Shown: in pieces, positions 10,462 through 57,966 of the stretch | How the letters are laid out: each line of letters starts with the position of its first letter | Position numbering within the stretch: the stretch's first letter is position 1 | From: Niabella soli DSM 19437 | GTDB taxonomy: Bacteria; Bacteroidota; Bacteroidia; Chitinophagales; Chitinophagaceae | Direction of reading: 5' to 3' | Assembly (NCBI RefSeq): GCF_000243115.2 | Contig: NZ_CP007035.1 | Coordinates: 3,038,001-3,102,000 of the forward strand | Length of the DNA: 64,000 bases | Made by a program: the position numbers and the translations under genes | The notes under the pieces: generated by a model | What the model was told of the DNA's origin: nothing | The model's database searches: none | The model's input: only the letters and a program-made list of their open reading frames with translations

Positions 10462-10500
10462 ACTGCATCTAAAGCAAAGGGCGGCGGATGCAGTATTTTT
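10462..10500 (+). terminator. Stem-loop with T-run between atpE and atpF
   Basis: Arms 10462-10469 (ACTGCATC) and 10487-10494 (GATGCAGT) are perfect, with a 17-nt loop, followed by ATTTTT. It lies inside the operon and may act as a partial terminator that favours expression of the multicopy c subunit. Confidence 0.45.
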
Positions 10501-10517
10501 CGGTTTTTAGTTTACAT

Positions 10518-10586
10518 GTTTAAAAGTTAACCAGTTAGCAGGTTTGGTCTTGTTAACTTAGCAACTTATCAACCTTTCAACTTTAT
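10518..10586. repeat. Heptad array upstream of atpF
   Basis: Seven-base words run in register from 10518 (GTTTAAA, AGTTAAC) and turn into the opposite-strand type (AGCAACT, TATCAAC) in the second half, ending five bases before the atpF start. Confidence 0.5.
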
Positions 10587-10590
10587 AAAA

Positions 10591-11085
10591 ATGGGATTAC
10601 TTACTCCTGATCTGGGTTATTTCTTCTGGATTTTCGTAGCTTTTGTTGTGGTATTTTTAGTGCTTAAAAAATTCGCCTGGAAACCCATCATCAAATCATT
10701 AAACGAGCGCGAGCAAACCATTGCGGGTGCCATCGCTTCTGCTGAAAAAGTAAAGGCAGAAATGGCGCAGTTGCAAAGCGAGAATGAATCCTTGCTTGCC
10801 AAAGCGCGTGAAGAGCGTTCCCAACTGCTGAAGGAAGCACGCGAAACCAAGGACAAGATCGTTAATGAAGCAAAAGAACAGGCAAAAACAGAAGCCAGTA
10901 AGATCATTGCCGATGCACAGCAGGCCATCAACGCTCAAAAAATGGCGGCCCTTACCGAAGTGAAAAATGAAGTGGGCAAAATGGTGATCGAAGTAAGCGA
11001 AAAAGTGCTACGTCAGCAATTGAGCGGAGAAGCCAAACAAGAAGCGTACATCAATGGCCTCGTTGACTCGGTTAAGCTGAACTAA
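10591..11085 (+). CDS. atpF: ATP synthase F0 subunit b
   Basis: 164-residue stator subunit: one N-terminal membrane helix (YFFWIFVAFVVVFLVLKK) followed by a long alpha-helical, Ala/Glu/Lys-rich stalk (about 40-160) that dimerises and reaches F1. The membrane-proximal LKKFAWKPI segment is conserved. The start at 10591 directly follows a heptad array. It continues to atpH after a 57-nt spacer. Confidence 0.93.
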   Translation: MGLLTPDLGYFFWIFVAFVVVFLVLKKFAWKPIIKSLNEREQTIAGAIASAEKVKAEMAQLQSENESLLAKAREERSQLLKEARETKDKIVNEAKEQAKTEASKIIADAQQAINAQKMAALTEVKNEVGKMVIEVSEKVLRQQLSGEAKQEAYINGLVDSVKLN

Positions 11086-11100
11086 TCCTGTCGGAACCGT

Positions 11101-11121
11101 TTTACATTTTACATTTTACAT
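11101..11121. repeat. Three exact TTTACAT heptads upstream of atpH
   Basis: TTTACAT occurs three times in tandem without mismatch, in the 57-nt atpF-atpH spacer. Confidence 0.6.
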
Positions 11122-11142
11122 TCGTTATTCTACATTTAAGAT

Positions 11143-11706
11143 ATGCCAAATCCCCGTTTAGCCTCCCGATATGCAAAAGCCTTGTTAGACCTGTCGAAAG
11201 AAAAGGATCAGGTGCCCCAGGTATTTGCTGATGTACAGTGGTTGCAAGCTGTATGCAAGGGGAGCAAAGATTTTGTAGACCTGCTGCGCAGTCCCATTAT
11301 TAAGGCTGATAAAAAGAAAAGCATTGTGAGTGCCATTGCAGGGAATAATATTGGTGCCATCACCAAAGGATTTGCCGATCTGCTGATTGCAAAGAACAGG
11401 GAAGCTATTCTGCCTGAAATTCTTTCGGCATTCGTCGATCAATATAAAATACTGAATAATATTCACACGGTAAAGCTGACCACTGCAGTACCGATAAGCG
11501 ACGAGGTAAAAAACAATATCATTAACCAGGTGAAAAAAGCCAGCGGTGAACAGAATATTGAACTGGAAGCTTCGGTAAACCCGGATATCATTGGTGGTTT
11601 TGTTTTGGAAATGGGCGATAAAATGGTGGACGCCAGCGTTAGCTATGACCTCAAGGCTATCGCAAAGCAATTCAGGAACAACGATTTTATCTACAAAGTA
11701 CGTTAA
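11143..11706 (+). CDS. atpH: ATP synthase F1 subunit delta
   Basis: 187-residue OSCP/delta subunit that ties the b stalk to the top of F1. The N-terminal helical bundle begins NPRLASRYAKALLDLS, and the C-terminal domain has the family signature region ASVNPDIIGGFVLEMGDKMVDASV. It is the last gene of this atp group: a terminator follows and the next gene is on the other strand, so the alpha and gamma genes must lie elsewhere. Confidence 0.93.
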   Translation: MPNPRLASRYAKALLDLSKEKDQVPQVFADVQWLQAVCKGSKDFVDLLRSPIIKADKKKSIVSAIAGNNIGAITKGFADLLIAKNREAILPEILSAFVDQYKILNNIHTVKLTTAVPISDEVKNNIINQVKKASGEQNIELEASVNPDIIGGFVLEMGDKMVDASVSYDLKAIAKQFRNNDFIYKVR

Positions 11707-12553: not shown

Positions 12554-12650
12554 CCATGACCTACAGACTATGAACCATTGGCCCATTCTCATATTTCCAA
12601 ATTTTCACATTTCCAAATTTTCATATTCCCACATTTCCACATTATCCCAT
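12554..12650. repeat. Heptad words followed by octad words
   Basis: Five 7-nt words (CCATGAC ... CCATTGG) at 12554-12588 run into 8-nt words (CACATTTC, CAAATTTT) to about 12650. A 16-nt unit at 12590-12605 is repeated at 12606-12621 with one mismatch. Confidence 0.55.
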
Positions 12651-12658
12651 TAAATTTG
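12651..12658 (+). promoter_or_regulatory. Candidate -7 box of the CDGSH gene
   Basis: TAAATTTG, 22 nt before the ATG at 12681, directly after the repeat block. Confidence 0.4.
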
Positions 12659-12680
12659 CCGGCAAATAAATCAACAATAG

Positions 12681-18153: not shown

Positions 18154-18224
18154 TTTGACGAGGTTTAATGATCGTTTCCTGTACAAAATAAAACCAGGGT
18201 AGTGACAGCAGTGTGTCAGGAGTA

Positions 18225-18294
18225 GTTAATAGTGAACAGTGAATAGTCAATGGGCACATCACTATGCACTATTGCCTATTGGCCATTGCCTTTG
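18225..18294. repeat. Ten-word heptad array overlapping the 3' end of ruvC
   Basis: Ten 7-nt words run in unbroken register from 18225 (GTTAATA, GTGAACA) to 18294 (GGCCATT, GCCTTTG). The first half is of GTGAATA type and the second of CACTATT type, so AATAGT at 18242-18247 can pair with ACTATT at 18268-18273. The last words encode the final residues and stop codon of ruvC. Confidence 0.65.
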
Positions 18295-20693: not shown

Positions 20694-20795
20694 GTTGTTA
20701 GTCTTCAGTTTTTAGTTTATCAGCTTTCGGTCTTTTGAACAACGCATATCCGGAATTTGCTTGCTGTCTGTTGACTATTCACTTTTCACCATTAT
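20694..20795. repeat. Two heptad blocks in a convergent spacer
   Basis: Words of GTxxxxA type (GTTGTTA, GTCTTCA) at 20694-20729 and of CTxTTCA type (CTATTCA, CTTTTCA) at 20768-20795, each in 7-nt steps apart from one 8-nt word. The spacer 20687-20834 holds no gene. Confidence 0.5.
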
Positions 20796-25964: not shown

Positions 25965-26002
25965 TGTGTATTACTTAAAAAGAGAACAGCCTTAGAATAC
26001 CG

Positions 26003-26030
26003 ACAAACGAAAAACGTGAGACGTTAAATA
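26003..26030. repeat. Short heptad block (words ending in ACG)
   Basis: ACAAACG, AAAAACG and TGAGACG follow in 7-nt register just downstream of the four-helix bundle gene. Confidence 0.4.
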
Positions 26031-27470: not shown

Positions 27471-27479
27471 AATTTTATT

Positions 27480-27514
27480 ATTTCTGATTTTTTGATGTCT
27501 GATTTATGATTTGT
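27480..27514. repeat. ATTTCTG-type heptads between hemB and the four-helix gene
   Basis: ATTTCTG, ATGTCTG and ATTTATG recur in 7-8 nt steps. The same word occurs in the block inside hemC at 33.9 kb. The last bases encode the C-terminus of the 27504 gene. Confidence 0.45.
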
Positions 27515-50103: not shown

Positions 50104-50120
50104 GTTTTCTTTTATCATTT

Positions 50121-50182
50121 GTTTGAGGTTTGAGGTTTGATGTTTGATGACCACATCAAACAATAAACATCGAACGATAAAC
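50121..50182. repeat. Inverted heptad array filling the actD-actE spacer
   Basis: Four words of GTTTGAG/GTTTGAT type (50121-50148), a 6-nt turn, then four words of the opposite type (ATCAAAC at 50155 to GATAAAC ending at 50182). GTTTGAT and ATCAAAC pair exactly, so the array can fold on itself. Confidence 0.65.
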
Positions 50183-50183
50183 T

Positions 50184-50771
50184 TTATACTGCAGCTACTT
50201 TTTTACCAAAAACAACAGACTCCCGGTCGTACCGGCCAAACCACCATCCGGTTTCTCTTTCCTGCACCTGTACTTCTTTAGCTCCGGCACTTTCCAAAAA
50301 AGCGATGGCTTCTGCTTCATTTGTTTTGTCGGTACATTCTACAGCCATTACAAATGTATCGTCCGTGCTGCGGGGGTTAAAATGATCCTTTTTTACAAAA
50401 GGCGCCAGTTGGCAAAGCCAGCAAAAAGTAAGCGTCATACCCACCGCCGAAAAAAGTACCGTCAGCTCAAACATAATAGGAATCCAGGCCGGCAGGGAAA
50501 AGAAAGGCTTTCCGCCAAAATTGATCTGCCAGTCGAGCGCCAACATCCAGCCAATAAAGCTGATGGCTACCGTAGTTCCGGTGATCCCGTAGATGAATCC
50601 GGCAATATGCAGGTCTGTGTCCTTCATTCCCAACTCCTTATCCAGGCCATGAATGGGGAACGGCGTGTACACGTCCTGTATTTTGTAACCGGCACGGCGC
50701 ACTTTTTTCACAGCAGGAAACAACACTGCTTCATCGTAAAAATTGCCTGTTATAAACTTCTTGATTGCCAT
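50184..50771 (-). CDS. actD: Alternative complex III subunit ActD (DUF3341)
   Basis: 195 residues from the Met at 50771 (MAIKKFITGNFYDEAV). DUF3341 pattern: a short soluble start with YKIQDVYTPFPIHGLDKELG, two membrane helices (FIYGITGTTVAISFIGWML and IPIMFELTVLFSAVGMTL), then a C-terminal ferredoxin-like domain (FVMAVECTDKTNEAEAIAF). It is a structural membrane subunit of ACIII. Confidence 0.9.
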   Translation of the reverse strand: MAIKKFITGNFYDEAVLFPAVKKVRRAGYKIQDVYTPFPIHGLDKELGMKDTDLHIAGFIYGITGTTVAISFIGWMLALDWQINFGGKPFFSLPAWIPIMFELTVLFSAVGMTLTFCWLCQLAPFVKKDHFNPRSTDDTFVMAVECTDKTNEAEAIAFLESAGAKEVQVQERETGWWFGRYDRESVVFGKKVAAV

Positions 50772-50786
50772 ATTTATTTTTTGTTT

Positions 50787-50878
50787 AAGGTTCAAAGTTT
50801 AAAGTATAAACTGCGTCCCTCATTATTTCTTTCTGTTTATTATTTCAAATCGTTCAACGGTTAACGTTGAACTTTAGA
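50787..50878. repeat. Heptad arrays in the actC-actD spacer
   Basis: AAGGTTC/AAAGTTT-type words at 50787-50814, and CGTTCAA/CGGTTAA/CGTTGAA words at 50851-50878, both in 7-nt register. TTCAAAG-like and CTTTGAA-like strands face each other in part. Confidence 0.55.
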
Positions 50879-50885
50879 ACTGCTG

Positions 50886-55400: not shown

Positions 55401-55621
55401 ATCGCCTCGCGCAATCTTGTTTTACAGCTTGCAGCCAGGGTAGCCGCGGCGGTACTGAAACCCAGATATTTTAAGAAATCCCTCCGGGGAGCTTTTGCAT
55501 CCAGTAAACTGGTATTATCGAAATCTTCAAAGGGGAGCTCATCACGAAACTCATCCTGAACCCGCTTTTGAAATTTTTCGGATTTATTAAATTCGCCGAA
55601 ACCTTGCCAATATTTACTCAT
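52466..55621 (-). CDS. actB: Alternative complex III subunit ActB (Mo-enzyme-like and Fe-S protein)
   Basis: 1051 residues. A twin-arginine signal lies near residue 48 (RRDFLKYLGFSTAAATLAAS). Residues about 80-700 follow the molybdopterin oxidoreductase fold, which in ACIII carries no cofactor. The C-terminal ferredoxin-like part has four cysteine clusters: CTGCSACVVACHAEN, CQHCDNAPCENVCP, CIGTRYCANNCPF and CSFCVQRLQ with CQQACS, predicting Fe-S clusters that take electrons from quinol. It is the periplasmic electron-transfer core beside ActA and ActC. Confidence 0.95.
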   Translation of the reverse strand: MSKYWQGFGEFNKSEKFQKRVQDEFRDELPFEDFDNTSLLDAKAPRRDFLKYLGFSTAAATLAASCKTRLREAIPYGNKPENLTPGEAKYYATTFVEGGDAVPVVAKVRDGRPIKIEGNDYLSTTNSGTSARVQASVLDLYDMHRLRFPQRQVAGKFEESTFDFIDKAITAELAGAGSIVLLTSTINSPTTLDIIAKNPKIRHVQYDAISYNGMLLANEASGFGRKIPTYKFDQASVIVSLGADFLGTWLNGEQNAAGYAVGRRINEASPAMSKHYQFESFLSLTGSNADERFTHRPSETGLVAGALLAALTNTSPTPPAPLFKDAKLNAGITKVANELKAASGKALVVCGSNDVNIQIFVNAINAAIGAYGTTIDWSRADNAHKATDKEFADLLTQMEGGQVGALLVHDANPVYDYFDGARFANALKNVKTTVSFGYRMDETTQLCKYIIPSHHYLESWGDAEPRTGVYSFIQPTIFPLFKTRDYQTSLLKWFGNAQDYEAYTRAYWSQKTGGETAYHKALENGVLEDAASGTGTYNGGAVAAASIAIQHTAIGGKDELALYQTVAIGAGSGATNPWLMELPDSISKACWGSYALISIPKAKELGIDTGVDYEYYPDKPVIKISNGKTTIELPILVIPGMNANTIAVALGYGRNEKLGKTAAGVGKNVFPFTSLSQSGSISYSVPNITIENAGRKEKIAQMQIHNSYEGRVEVLRETTLATYRKTPNEVLDFRKHLAATYARTTGDFRREGTLYGEHDKPGIKWGMNIDMNACTGCSACVVACHAENNVPVVGKSEVLRFHDMHWLRIDRYFVSDDANPDNLKGVVFQPMLCQHCDNAPCENVCPVAATNHSSEGLNQMAYNRCIGTRYCANNCPFKVRRFNWADYTGADSFPNNQDQKVVGVLDPVVHQMNDAVSRMVLNPDVTVRSRGVMEKCSFCVQRLQYAKLEAKKADRPLKDGEAKTACQQACSTNAIVFGDVRDKESAIAQVRLNNPQRLFYSLEQLHVLPNVSYFSKIRNTDEIIAGGEDDVVDPEDRKKGLMEPAKENAHH

Positions 55622-55623
55622 AC

Positions 55624-55748
55624 TAATGTGATAAATGTGTTATAATGTGTAAATGTGCTGAATGTGTTAATGTGCAAATAGGATAATAATTAAAAACTGA
55701 TGATCCCTACATTCTCACATTTCCATATTCCCAAATTTCCTAATTTCT
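55624..55748. repeat. Inverted 8-nt word array in the actA-actB spacer
   Basis: AATGTG recurs six times at 55624-55677 in roughly 8-nt steps. After a short gap, CACATTTC/CATATTCC/CAAATTTC words follow at 55716-55747. AATGTG and CACATT are complementary, so the two halves can pair. The second half shares words with the block at 12590-12650. Confidence 0.6.
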
Positions 55749-57039
55749 AATAGTGACATTTCTGACACTCCGTTCCACCAATGTCTTTTACTGTTACGCT
55801 ATCCATTTTTCCAGACTTAATATCGTCATGGAATTTCTCATATATGCTGTAAAATTTATTGCCGCTGGTAGAATCCACGTTAAAGTTCACTTTTGTATTC
55901 CGGTGACAGTTGACGCACCATCCCATGCTTAATTCTGCAAACTGATGTACTTCGTCCATCGCAGTAATTTCACCATGACAGGTCTGGCACTGTACGTTCC
56001 CTACCCTGATGTGTTGGCTGTGGTTAAAATATACGTGATCGGGCAGGTTGTGGATCTTGGTCCATTCGATGGGCTTGGCATCATTAGGGTTCCATGCTTC
56101 GGGCGCCTGGGGATTAAACCCGGCGTATTTGTACAGTTTTGCAATTTCAGCCGTACCGTCAATTACATTGCCTTCCTGGTCTTTCAGTTCCGGACCGCTA
56201 TATTTCTGGATGTTTTTATGACAGTTCATACAAACATTTACAGAAGGAATGGCCGCTGTTTTGCTTTCCCAGGCATTGCCGTGGCAATATAAACAGTTGA
56301 TCTGGTTAATGCCTGCGTGCACGCGGTGCGAGTAGAAAATAGGCTGCCGGGGTTCGTAGTTCTTCTGGCGGTTCATGTTGATCATGGCCTTGGTATTAAA
56401 ATACCCGCTCACAATAAATAACAGGATGGCAATAGTTGCCAGGTACACTTTATTTCTAAGGAATGGAACCGCAGCGGGTGTTTTTTTGCCATCTGCTTCG
56501 TCGGCAATTTTTTTCAGGCTGCTGTTTACATAAAGCAGGATCACGGCGCCAAGGGCCAAAATCAATGTAATGATTCCATATAATAAAGGGTGTTGTTTGG
56601 TGCTGTCTTCCTCTGCAGCTTGTCCGGCAGCAGCGGCTGCACCGCCTTTGGCATCCAGCTTACCACTTCCTTTATCGTCTATATATTTTAAAATAGCATC
56701 GATCTGCGGATCTGTAAGATCCTGAAACACAGACATTACGTTCGGTGTCAGTTTGGAGGTTTCCACCGCCTGCGGGTAACCCGAAGCTATCAGCTTTTGG
56801 TTATTCCGGATCCACTCATGCAGCTTTCCCTGATCGGACCATTGCGCCTGTACGCCAAAAAGACCCGGACCGGTGCTCATTGTTTTCATATCGCCGGAGT
56901 GACAACTCTGACATTTGCTGATAAACAACTGCTTACCTTCCGCATCGTCCTGCGCTATTGTAACATTAAACTTGGAAAAGGTAAAAAGCGTTAGTATGAT
57001 TAAGAAAAGCCGGTTACTTATATACTTAGAAATAGTCAT
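55747..57039 (-). CDS. actA: Alternative complex III subunit ActA, with extra N-terminal cytochrome c domain
   Basis: 430 residues. A signal-like helix is followed by a monoheme cytochrome c domain (CQSCHSGD, distal Met in the SKLTPNVMSVF area). Then come hydrophobic helices at about 150-172 and 190-210, then five further CXXCH sites: CLYCHGN, CMNCHKN, CQTCHGE, CVNCHRN and CQKCHY at the very C-terminus. Known ActA is pentaheme, so this one appears to be a cytochrome c-pentaheme fusion with six sites. It is the first gene of the operon and passes electrons from ActB Fe-S clusters outward. Confidence 0.93.
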   Translation of the reverse strand: MTISKYISNRLFLIILTLFTFSKFNVTIAQDDAEGKQLFISKCQSCHSGDMKTMSTGPGLFGVQAQWSDQGKLHEWIRNNQKLIASGYPQAVETSKLTPNVMSVFQDLTDPQIDAILKYIDDKGSGKLDAKGGAAAAAGQAAEEDSTKQHPLLYGIITLILALGAVILLYVNSSLKKIADEADGKKTPAAVPFLRNKVYLATIAILLFIVSGYFNTKAMINMNRQKNYEPRQPIFYSHRVHAGINQINCLYCHGNAWESKTAAIPSVNVCMNCHKNIQKYSGPELKDQEGNVIDGTAEIAKLYKYAGFNPQAPEAWNPNDAKPIEWTKIHNLPDHVYFNHSQHIRVGNVQCQTCHGEITAMDEVHQFAELSMGWCVNCHRNTKVNFNVDSTSGNKFYSIYEKFHDDIKSGKMDSVTVKDIGGTECQKCHY

Positions 57040-57093: not shown

Positions 57094-57264
57094 AGGCTCG
57101 GGCTTAACAAATCAGCAACATTTTAAAAATTTTTTAAACCCGCTCCCACACTGCGTTTCAGCCGATTTCAATGGTCAAAAAAATTTTTGCCAAAAATGTT
57201 TGTCATTAAAAAGTCATTGGTTTTCATAACACTAATAGTTGTTAACAAGTGGTTTAGGAAACTG

Positions 57265-57341
57265 ATACGAGATACTGGATGCTCGATACTCGATTTCAGA
57301 ATCCAGCATCCAGTATCCAGAAACTAGTAACCAGAATCTGT
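57265..57341. repeat. Eleven-word heptad array upstream of purN
   Basis: From 57265 every seventh base restarts a similar word: ATACGAG, ATACTGG in the first half; AATCCAG, CATCCAG, TATCCAG later. GATACTGGATGCT (57271-57283) is the perfect reverse complement of 57305-57317, so the array folds as a 13-bp hairpin. The register holds for 77 nt. Confidence 0.75.
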
Positions 57342-57393
57342 TCCAAAAACATTTGGAAGCTTGGTTATTTTGTAAAATCTTTGATCCCTTATT

Positions 57394-57966
57394 ATGAGCA
57401 AAAAAAATATAGCCCTATTCGCCAGTGGCGCCGGCTCCAACGCACAAAAGATCATTGATCATTTCCGCCACCATGCTTTTGTTTCGGTTGGGCTTATTGT
57501 GTGCAATAAACCGGACGCAGGAGTTACCAAAATTGCTGCAACCGAAGGCATTGAACTGTTGCTGATTGACAAGGCCGAACTGCAATCATCCTCGTTTCCT
57601 TCACTTTTACAGGAAAAAGGAATAGATTTTATTATTCTTGCCGGTTTTTTACTAAAAATACCAGCCTCCCTGGTTGAAGCATACCCCAGGCGCATTATTA
57701 ATATTCACCCGGCCCTGCTGCCAAAATATGGTGGAAAAGGAATGTATGGCCATTTCGTACATGAGGCAGTTATTAACGCGGGGGAAAAAGAAAGTGGCAT
57801 TACGATTCATTATGTTGATGAGCAGTATGACCATGGCGCTACTATTTTCCAGGCTACCTGCGCCGTTTTACCAGCCGACACCCCTGATCTACTGGCGCAA
57901 AAGGTTCATTTACTTGAGCATCAGCATTTTGCAACGGTAATTGAGGAATTGATCGCTGGTAAATAA
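57394..57966 (+). CDS. purN: Phosphoribosylglycinamide formyltransferase
   Basis: 190-residue enzyme of purine synthesis that transfers formyl from 10-formyl-tetrahydrofolate to GAR. The phosphate loop ALFASGAGSNAQKI opens the protein; the catalytic set follows in INIHPALLPKYGGKGMYG (His) and ITIHYVDEQYDHGATIF (Asp). Length is as usual. It stands alone and is followed by a strong bidirectional terminator. Confidence 0.94.
   Translation: MSKKNIALFASGAGSNAQKIIDHFRHHAFVSVGLIVCNKPDAGVTKIAATEGIELLLIDKAELQSSSFPSLLQEKGIDFIILAGFLLKIPASLVEAYPRRIINIHPALLPKYGGKGMYGHFVHEAVINAGEKESGITIHYVDEQYDHGATIFQATCAVLPADTPDLLAQKVHLLEHQHFATVIEELIAGK

Follow-up and report, generated by a model that had tools for sequence, protein, structure and literature searches.

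Between two divergent genes of Niabella soli lie eleven consecutive 7-nt words that resemble each other without being identical, which raises the question of whether such degenerate arrays are a real intergenic element and how they could be formed. The locus is part of a window of 64,000 nucleotides, the whole stretch of DNA analyzed (3038001–3102000 of the 4,697,343-base single-contig genome). Its flanking genes are predicted to encode a QrcA-like multihaem cytochrome (55747–57039, minus strand; 55.1 bits) and a PurN-like protein (57394–57966, plus strand; 140.2 bits), both being family matches under the curated cut-offs.

The focal array was delimited at 57264–57338, with all eleven words in a single frame. 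The lag-7 score of 30.0 was accompanied by a score of 22.1 at lag 14 and by at most 5.1 at the remaining lags from 4 to 15. A preliminary description of this DNA had reported eleven words without a phase slip and a 13-bp perfect inverted repeat, and both were recovered. Its 15 sites with arrays were tested as 110-nt segments against 2000 dinucleotide shuffles: 12 gave p < 0.01, and 48038 and 55624 gave p 0.014 and p 0.041, whereas 52351 (p 0.146) was unsupported by this segment test. The arrays and arms are given below in window positions, without strand unless stated; array score thresholds varied between analyses from 10 to 16.

10496–10588: 8-nt array, stopping 2 nt short of the ORF start at 10591; lag-8 score 24.2
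11098–11142: single-arm 7-nt array (TTTTACA), adjoining the ORF start at 11143; lag-7 score 17.1 inside the spacer, no fold
12571–12652: 8-nt array of the ATTTTCAC/ATTTCCAA class; lag-8 score 32.2
18221–18256: 7-nt array of the AATAGTG/C class; lag-7 score 15.7
20758–20793: 7-nt array, the one array behind the previously listed sites 20694 and 20768; score 11.9, p 0.0005 for the 20768 segment
23752–23781: weak 7-nt array; score 9.7, p 0.002
25995–26028: weak 7-nt array; score 9.9, p 0.0065
27474–27514: 7-nt array of the TTTATGA class; score 13.1
50121–50182: two-armed GTTTGAG/CATCAAAC array, flanked by same-strand genes; left-arm score 20.1, 22 of 29 arm positions paired (counted in spacers of up to 420 nt)
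50771–50812: 7-nt array of the AGGTTCAAAGTTTAA class; score 16.0
55703–55747: 8-nt C-skewed array of the ATTTCCAA class; lag-8 score 18.0
57264–57338: focal two-armed heptad array, word class GGATACT/CCAGTAT; lag-7 score 30.0
57271–57283, plus strand: left arm of the 13-bp perfect inverted repeat, G-skewed words; fold, z −5.2 compared to shuffles
57305–57317, plus strand: right arm of the 13-bp perfect inverted repeat, C-skewed words; fold

A G-skewed AATGTG stretch near 55624–55688 had weaker support, in line with the p-value of the 55624 segment. At 50772–50885, the non-repeat center between two arms was found to be alike in N. soli and the genomes G010, G014, G005, G009, G006, and G015, and to differ in G016 and G011, which are the nearest relatives of N. 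soli. Exchange, loss or constraint are candidate explanations for this distribution.

Abundance, placement and words of the arrays

Genome-wide figures were obtained from 864,000 of the 4,697,343 bases. Genes were predicted by a home-made hexamer caller, so that the spacer borders are approximate. In 271 spacers from 464 kb, the match rate at lag 7 was 0.2856 compared to 0.2654 in shuffled sequences (z 10.8), with echoes at lag 14 (z 7.2) and lag 21 (z 5.6), and lags 2 and 3 were also above shuffles (z 9.3 and 15.4). The lag-7 peak was absent from coding DNA in the match-rate autocorrelation of the same 464 kb. The 864 kb contained 131 arrays with lag 7 or 8 compared to 5.0 expected. Lag 7 accounted for 105 array segments and lag 8 for 39, compared to 3 to 8 for each of lags 5, 6, 9, 10, and 11, the expectation at the same threshold being about 1 to 2 per lag in 464 kb. 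Thus, the arrays show the excess over shuffles by which the preliminary description had proposed to judge them, as well as the 8-nt step that it ascribed to some of them, and they are confirmed to be a real intergenic element and not chance periodicity.

By orientation of the flanking genes, arrays were present in 17 of the 70 convergent spacers in the 864 kb, in 73 of the 332 codirectional ones and in 12 of the 82 divergent ones. No preference for starts or stops was found: a start lay within 15 nt of 28 of the 56 arrays and a stop within 15 nt of 25, with 21.7 expected for each. A start-codon element was rejected on these counts.

The words had been supposed to be private to each locus, which was shown to be wrong, since a few classes are common to many loci. 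At a score of 14, 88 of 91 N. soli arrays matched another array, with 469 matching pairs compared to 9 in shuffles, and four word classes fitted 67 lag-7 arrays with an EM score of 1891 compared to a mean of 1398 in six column permutations. None of the classes was built on a G-tract. The order of variant heptads also recurred between loci: among 2145 pairs from 66 arrays, 39 scored at least 23 compared to 7.5 with heptads permuted, a control that loses the likeness of neighboring heptads. Eight pairs scored at least 30 compared to none when permuted, five of these eight best pairs each lying within one 20-kb stretch (three in L236, two in L009). In L236 (1580001–1600000 of the genome), several adjacent spacers contain array blocks that closely resemble each other and keep one order, which looks like the outcome of a tandem duplication of a spacer or gene. 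Of 8209 array pairs within the genome, pairs less than 12 kb apart on one stretch being left out, 19 had an exact 18-mer in common, as had 4 of 3013, 0 of 2751 and 6 of 3144 pairs between species. Copying is thus not clearly within-genome, and wholesale within-genome copying was dropped as an explanation. A third small repeat family, similar to CCACGAAGACACGAAG and apart from the heptad and octad classes, was observed in three arrays of the 864-kb sample.

Words common to several loci would be expected if the arrays were binding sites for DNA- or RNA-binding regulators, one for each word class. We regard this as improbable, because there are several word classes, start codons are not preferred, divergent spacers hold the fewest arrays, and 200-kb samples of the congeners G011 (5 arrays, 1.4 expected) and G004 (1 array, 0.7 expected) were almost free of arrays, although spacers in the act operon of G004 are array-like. 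The best reading is that the arrays are spacer elements at the DNA level and not the binding sites of one regulator.

Array-rich samples were also found in the genus, with 23 arrays in G005 (340 kb), 21 in G009 (350 kb) and 24 in G006 (340 kb), where 1.4 to 1.8 were expected. Outside the genus, 42 of 72 loci not titled Niabella contained an array (66 lag-7 and 27 lag-8 segments compared to 0.2 and 1.0 expected), often with words different from those of N. soli. These 72 loci were used out of 80, seven Niabella-titled loci and L102 being set aside and spacers containing NNNN skipped; all were fetched by one act-operon protein, so that many represent the same region in related genomes. In the act operon of G002, G003, and G012 (L094, L093, and L092), several genes look fragmented, probably due to errors in draft assemblies.

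Direction of the words and relation to known heptamers

Among the 131 N. soli arrays, 23 were two-armed (21 with G-words followed by C-words and 2 in the opposite order), 82 had one detectable arm and 26 had no clear skew. The change of word type at the center, previously described for many arrays, therefore holds for 23 of them but not for the single-arm and skewless ones. The arms were found to follow a direction rule, in that the G-rich strand is oriented from the gene edge toward the spacer interior in 77 of 100 arrays. This count includes 100 of the 144 array segments, those with little skew being left out. The G-words pointed inward from the nearer gene edge at starts (32 of 41, p 0.0004) as well as at stops (45 of 59, p 0.00007). 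In the 464 kb of N. soli, the GC skew of arrays was +0.29 where they lay in the first fifth of the spacer and −0.35 where they lay in the last, compared to a flat skew without polarity in non-array spacer DNA. At the loci not titled Niabella, 45 of 56 arrays pointed inward (37 skewless ones left out), a nominal p of 0.000005 for what are not 56 independent events, since many of these loci represent one operon as found in related genomes. Within the genus, 33 of 51 arrays from the homologous samples of G005, G009, and G006 did so (p 0.049).

Heptameric repeats of a similar kind have been published. Rehm et al. (2015; PMC4692102) describe intergenic GGGAATC and GGGGA(C/T)T repeats in Xanthomonas and Nostoc, which are underrepresented between divergent genes, vary in length and sequence between relatives and may include heterogeneous units. 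Convergent inverted pairs numbered 70 in Xcc and 75 in Xac, with few inverted pairs in Nostoc, and the placement of the G strand relative to the ORF corresponds to that in Niabella. The N. soli arrays thus share with the repeats of both genera, as far as described there, the excess of a 7-nt unit, the location in spacers and a G strand leading away from the ORF, and with those of Xanthomonas the convergent pairs. They differ in that the published repeats are built from G-tract words that could form quadruplexes and reach long perfect runs (14 units in Xcc), whereas many words in N. soli are AT-richer, 8-nt units occur too, and neither a G-tract class nor a perfect run of 3.5 copies was found among the 91 arrays. 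For lack of this G-tract trait, we consider the Niabella arrays a variant of the heptameric kind and not members of the GGGAATC family; with the same strand placement, they represent a degenerate, many-worded variant of what is known.

A second published repeat, TAACTGA, was reported from Beggiatoaceae, cyanobacteria and five Bacteroidetes, some of the latter having different heptamers as well, and differed mostly by 7-nt-step indels between two close Cyanothece strains (MacGregor, 2015; PMC4679880). It resembles the Niabella repeats in consisting of intergenic 7-nt direct repeats. Unlike these, it has one fixed word and, in the Orange Guaymas genome, is described as mostly immediately preceding start codons, a placement not preferred by the 56 N. 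soli arrays compared with starts and stops. Across a wide range of prokaryotes, heptamers have been reported to be the commonest tandem repeats between genes, without clear hints of what they do (PMC6344855). The literature matches listed included none that treats degenerate arrays from Niabella or Chitinophagaceae, most subscription journals being outside the search. The possibly undescribed class of intergenic element suggested in the preliminary description is therefore genuine as a class with units of 7 and 8 nt, but its kind was already in print (PMC4692102, PMC4679880, PMC6344855).

The polarity is the same at starts and stops, extends to loci with different words beyond Niabella, and matches the one described in Xanthomonas and Nostoc. 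A function at start codons or promoters is thereby made less likely, and an origin at the DNA level from both sides of the spacer gains support.

Folding, RNA hairpins and mobility

Two-armed arrays were found to fold beyond shuffles (57264–57345, z −5.2 and −5.4; 50115–50185, z −3.6 and −5.2, on both strands). No fold was found for the single-arm stretches 12554–12660 and 11098–11146 (z +0.24 and +1.19) or for the pair at 55620–55750 (z −0.47). Across 35 arrays, nested pairing of the arms was slightly above that of permuted units (Wilcoxon p 0.0009), with 3 of 35 below 0.05 singly, and the two arms of an array were sometimes of different word classes. Heptanucleotide units in hairpin arms, including degenerate ones, are also found in cyanobacterial STRR and in the degenerate repeats of the cyanobacterial tRNA-Leu intron. 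A search against Rfam gave no match in the window at gathering score, and the focal spacer gave five weak matches to miRNA models far under the gathering scores.

Strong folding and nested arms could point to arrays kept as intercistronic RNA hairpins that adjust how operon mRNAs are degraded, processed or translated, and some act-operon spacers are apparently conserved above the synonymous level. As a general explanation this is unlikely, because the two single-arm stretches and the 55620–55750 pair were unfolded, convergent spacers are as array-rich as codirectional ones, and orthologous spacers of relatives have no array or one of another class. The act-operon array spacers that look more conserved than synonymous sites are likewise replaced in G016 and G011. 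Column identity between G005 and G009 was 0.659 in arrays and 0.689 in other spacer columns, and the conservation of 13 array spacers (median 0.59) was not significantly different from that of 108 others (median 0.85; p 0.18). As a general rule, selection for structure with 7-nt spacing, raised as a possibility from the sequence earlier, is thus unsupported. Probably the arrays have no general function in the cell, and individual ones may be retained as hairpins between cistrons.

REP palindromes, which are associated with RAYT transposases, are dispersed and intergenic as well, and a 7-nt periodicity is not expected of them. A dispersed, often palindromic family could be composed of mobile hairpins moved by a RAYT-type transposase, or of repeats written by a reverse transcriptase or by Ku end joining. 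Like REP/RAYT hosts, N. soli has Y1_Tnp genes (10 matches; present in 16 of 17 genomes of the genus) as well as Ku, and two of the three N. soli Y1_Tnp neighborhoods scanned contained a weak array-like stretch, which is about the expectation from array density. Unlike REPs, the arrays showed no link to Y1_Tnp genes: only 7 of 31 neighborhoods scanned in all had an array-like stretch, the N. soli copy L277 is flanked by different, GC-rich palindromes, G004 has seven Y1_Tnp matches and Ku with few arrays, and target-site duplications were not noticed by eye at eight copies. RAYT mobility was rejected on this lack of linkage. Reverse-transcriptase templating was also rejected, since RVT_1 matches, present in 7 of 17 genomes of the genus, numbered zero in N. 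soli, G006, and G004, and Ku end joining was rejected since Ku, found in 12 of the 17 genomes, occurs in the array-poor G004 and G011. We therefore find an explanation by mobility or by these enzymes highly improbable. L277 itself (1063958–1064302 of the genome, viewed with 1.5-kb flanks), a RAYT-like Y1_Tnp gene with short palindromes unlike heptad arrays, is probably a true REP/RAYT system of Niabella.

Age and formation of the arrays

The units of the N. soli arrays differed by transitions in 45% of substitutions at lag 7 and 50% at lag 8, where composition predicts 31 and 33%. Transitions made up 54% of substitutions in 96 aligned spacers and 38% of the unit differences in G006. Columns along the heptad were uneven in only 7 of 53 arrays (p < 0.05), and a strong fixed core inside the heptad was therefore rejected. 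The median mismatch between units was 0.27, and it was below 0.10 in one of 92 arrays; corresponding young arrays numbered 1 of 17 in G005, 0 of 15 in G009 and 3 of 19 in G006 (one at 0.00), giving 5 of 143 for the four genomes together. A simple simulation of slippage and decay with uniform ages gave a fraction of 0.30 young arrays. The near-identical units of a simple slippage microsatellite (VNTR) are thus not a feature of the N. soli arrays, in agreement with the earlier remark that ordinary slippage does not fit, and plain ongoing slippage explains this genome poorly.

Comparison with relatives showed how single arrays change. At the focal site, G016 contains a 122-nt array of other words adjoining a common left flank (identity 0.922). 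The mismatch between focal units (20 of 68) is lower than the four-fold difference between N. soli and G016 (0.404), so that decay from perfect copies is possible at this site. Gain or loss of whole heptads between close strains, which had been suggested as a check, was seen once, as an indel of exactly 7 nt within an array aligned between G005 and G009, but a 13-nt change was seen as well, and 7-nt indels were not enriched in array spacers (2 of 55 indels compared to 14 of 379 in other spacers). Lag identity was 0.60 at the array center and 0.49 to 0.57 five or more heptads out, a weak youth gradient (27 arrays).

The main rival to a two-sided origin at the DNA level is decayed slippage: polymerase slippage would make perfect 7- or 8-mer arrays which neutral point mutation then decays, the arms would come from quasi-palindrome template switching, and the polarity would be incidental. 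Transition-rich differences, almost evenly mutated columns, the whole-heptad indel, array columns without extra conservation, the focal mismatch, which is compatible with the age of the split from G016, and the young arrays of G006 and G005 are all consistent with it. The scarcity of young arrays compared to the simulation, perfect runs shorter than 3.5 copies in all 91 arrays and the unenriched 7-nt indels argue against it, and it predicts neither the shared heptad order nor the polarity; the lack of young arrays could, however, reflect a burst that is over. On balance, we regard decayed slippage as possible but doubtful.

We tentatively favor another reading, in which the arrays are the Niabella (Bacteroidota) form of heptameric intergenic repeats and heptads that are varied from the outset are seeded by a process at the DNA level and later remodeled by slippage and point mutation. 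We infer that this process could start with a spacer that is broken or in which a replication fork has stalled. Two facing 3′ ends would then be extended in steps of about 7 nt, sometimes 8 nt, possibly with the end's own last unit or short pieces of other arrays as template, the newly made strand being the G-richer one. Where the ends meet, the top strand would change, read from left to right, from G-words to C-words, giving a foldable head-to-head array. Later, point mutation would diversify the units, heptads would occasionally be gained or lost, and a spacer could be refilled with another word class.

Such an extension of ends is supported by a period of almost wholly 7 or 8 nt with no lag-7 peak in coding DNA, by the polarity together with an array presence not tied to transcription, and by the transition-rich units, the 7-nt indel, the word swap in G016, the shared heptad order and the nested arms. 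The unenriched 7-nt indels, 18-mer sharing that is not clearly within-genome, the weak youth gradient, the few singly nested arrays, arms of different classes, the weaker polarity in G005, G009, and G006 (33 to 18), the low share of transitions in G006, a focal mismatch that permits decay from perfect copies and the apparent conservation of some act-operon spacers count against it. A more specific version, which appears quite unlikely, is end-lengthening by a cellular polymerase without an RVT_1 domain that would add error-prone G-rich units of 7 or 8 nt onto each 3′ end at a break in the spacer before the ends are joined. Each array would then be a head-to-head, telomere-like fusion, and the same process would underlie the heptamers of Bacteroidota, Xanthomonas and cyanobacteria.

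We conclude that the arrays are a real, widespread, degenerate and polar variant of heptameric intergenic repeats, for which a two-sided origin at the DNA level is, tentatively, the best supported reading. Niabella thereby adds to the known heptamers a case in which the units are degenerate and many-worded and yet keep their phase and follow one direction rule. Besides, the array-rich and almost array-free samples from congeners provide a natural comparison for finding the gene responsible.
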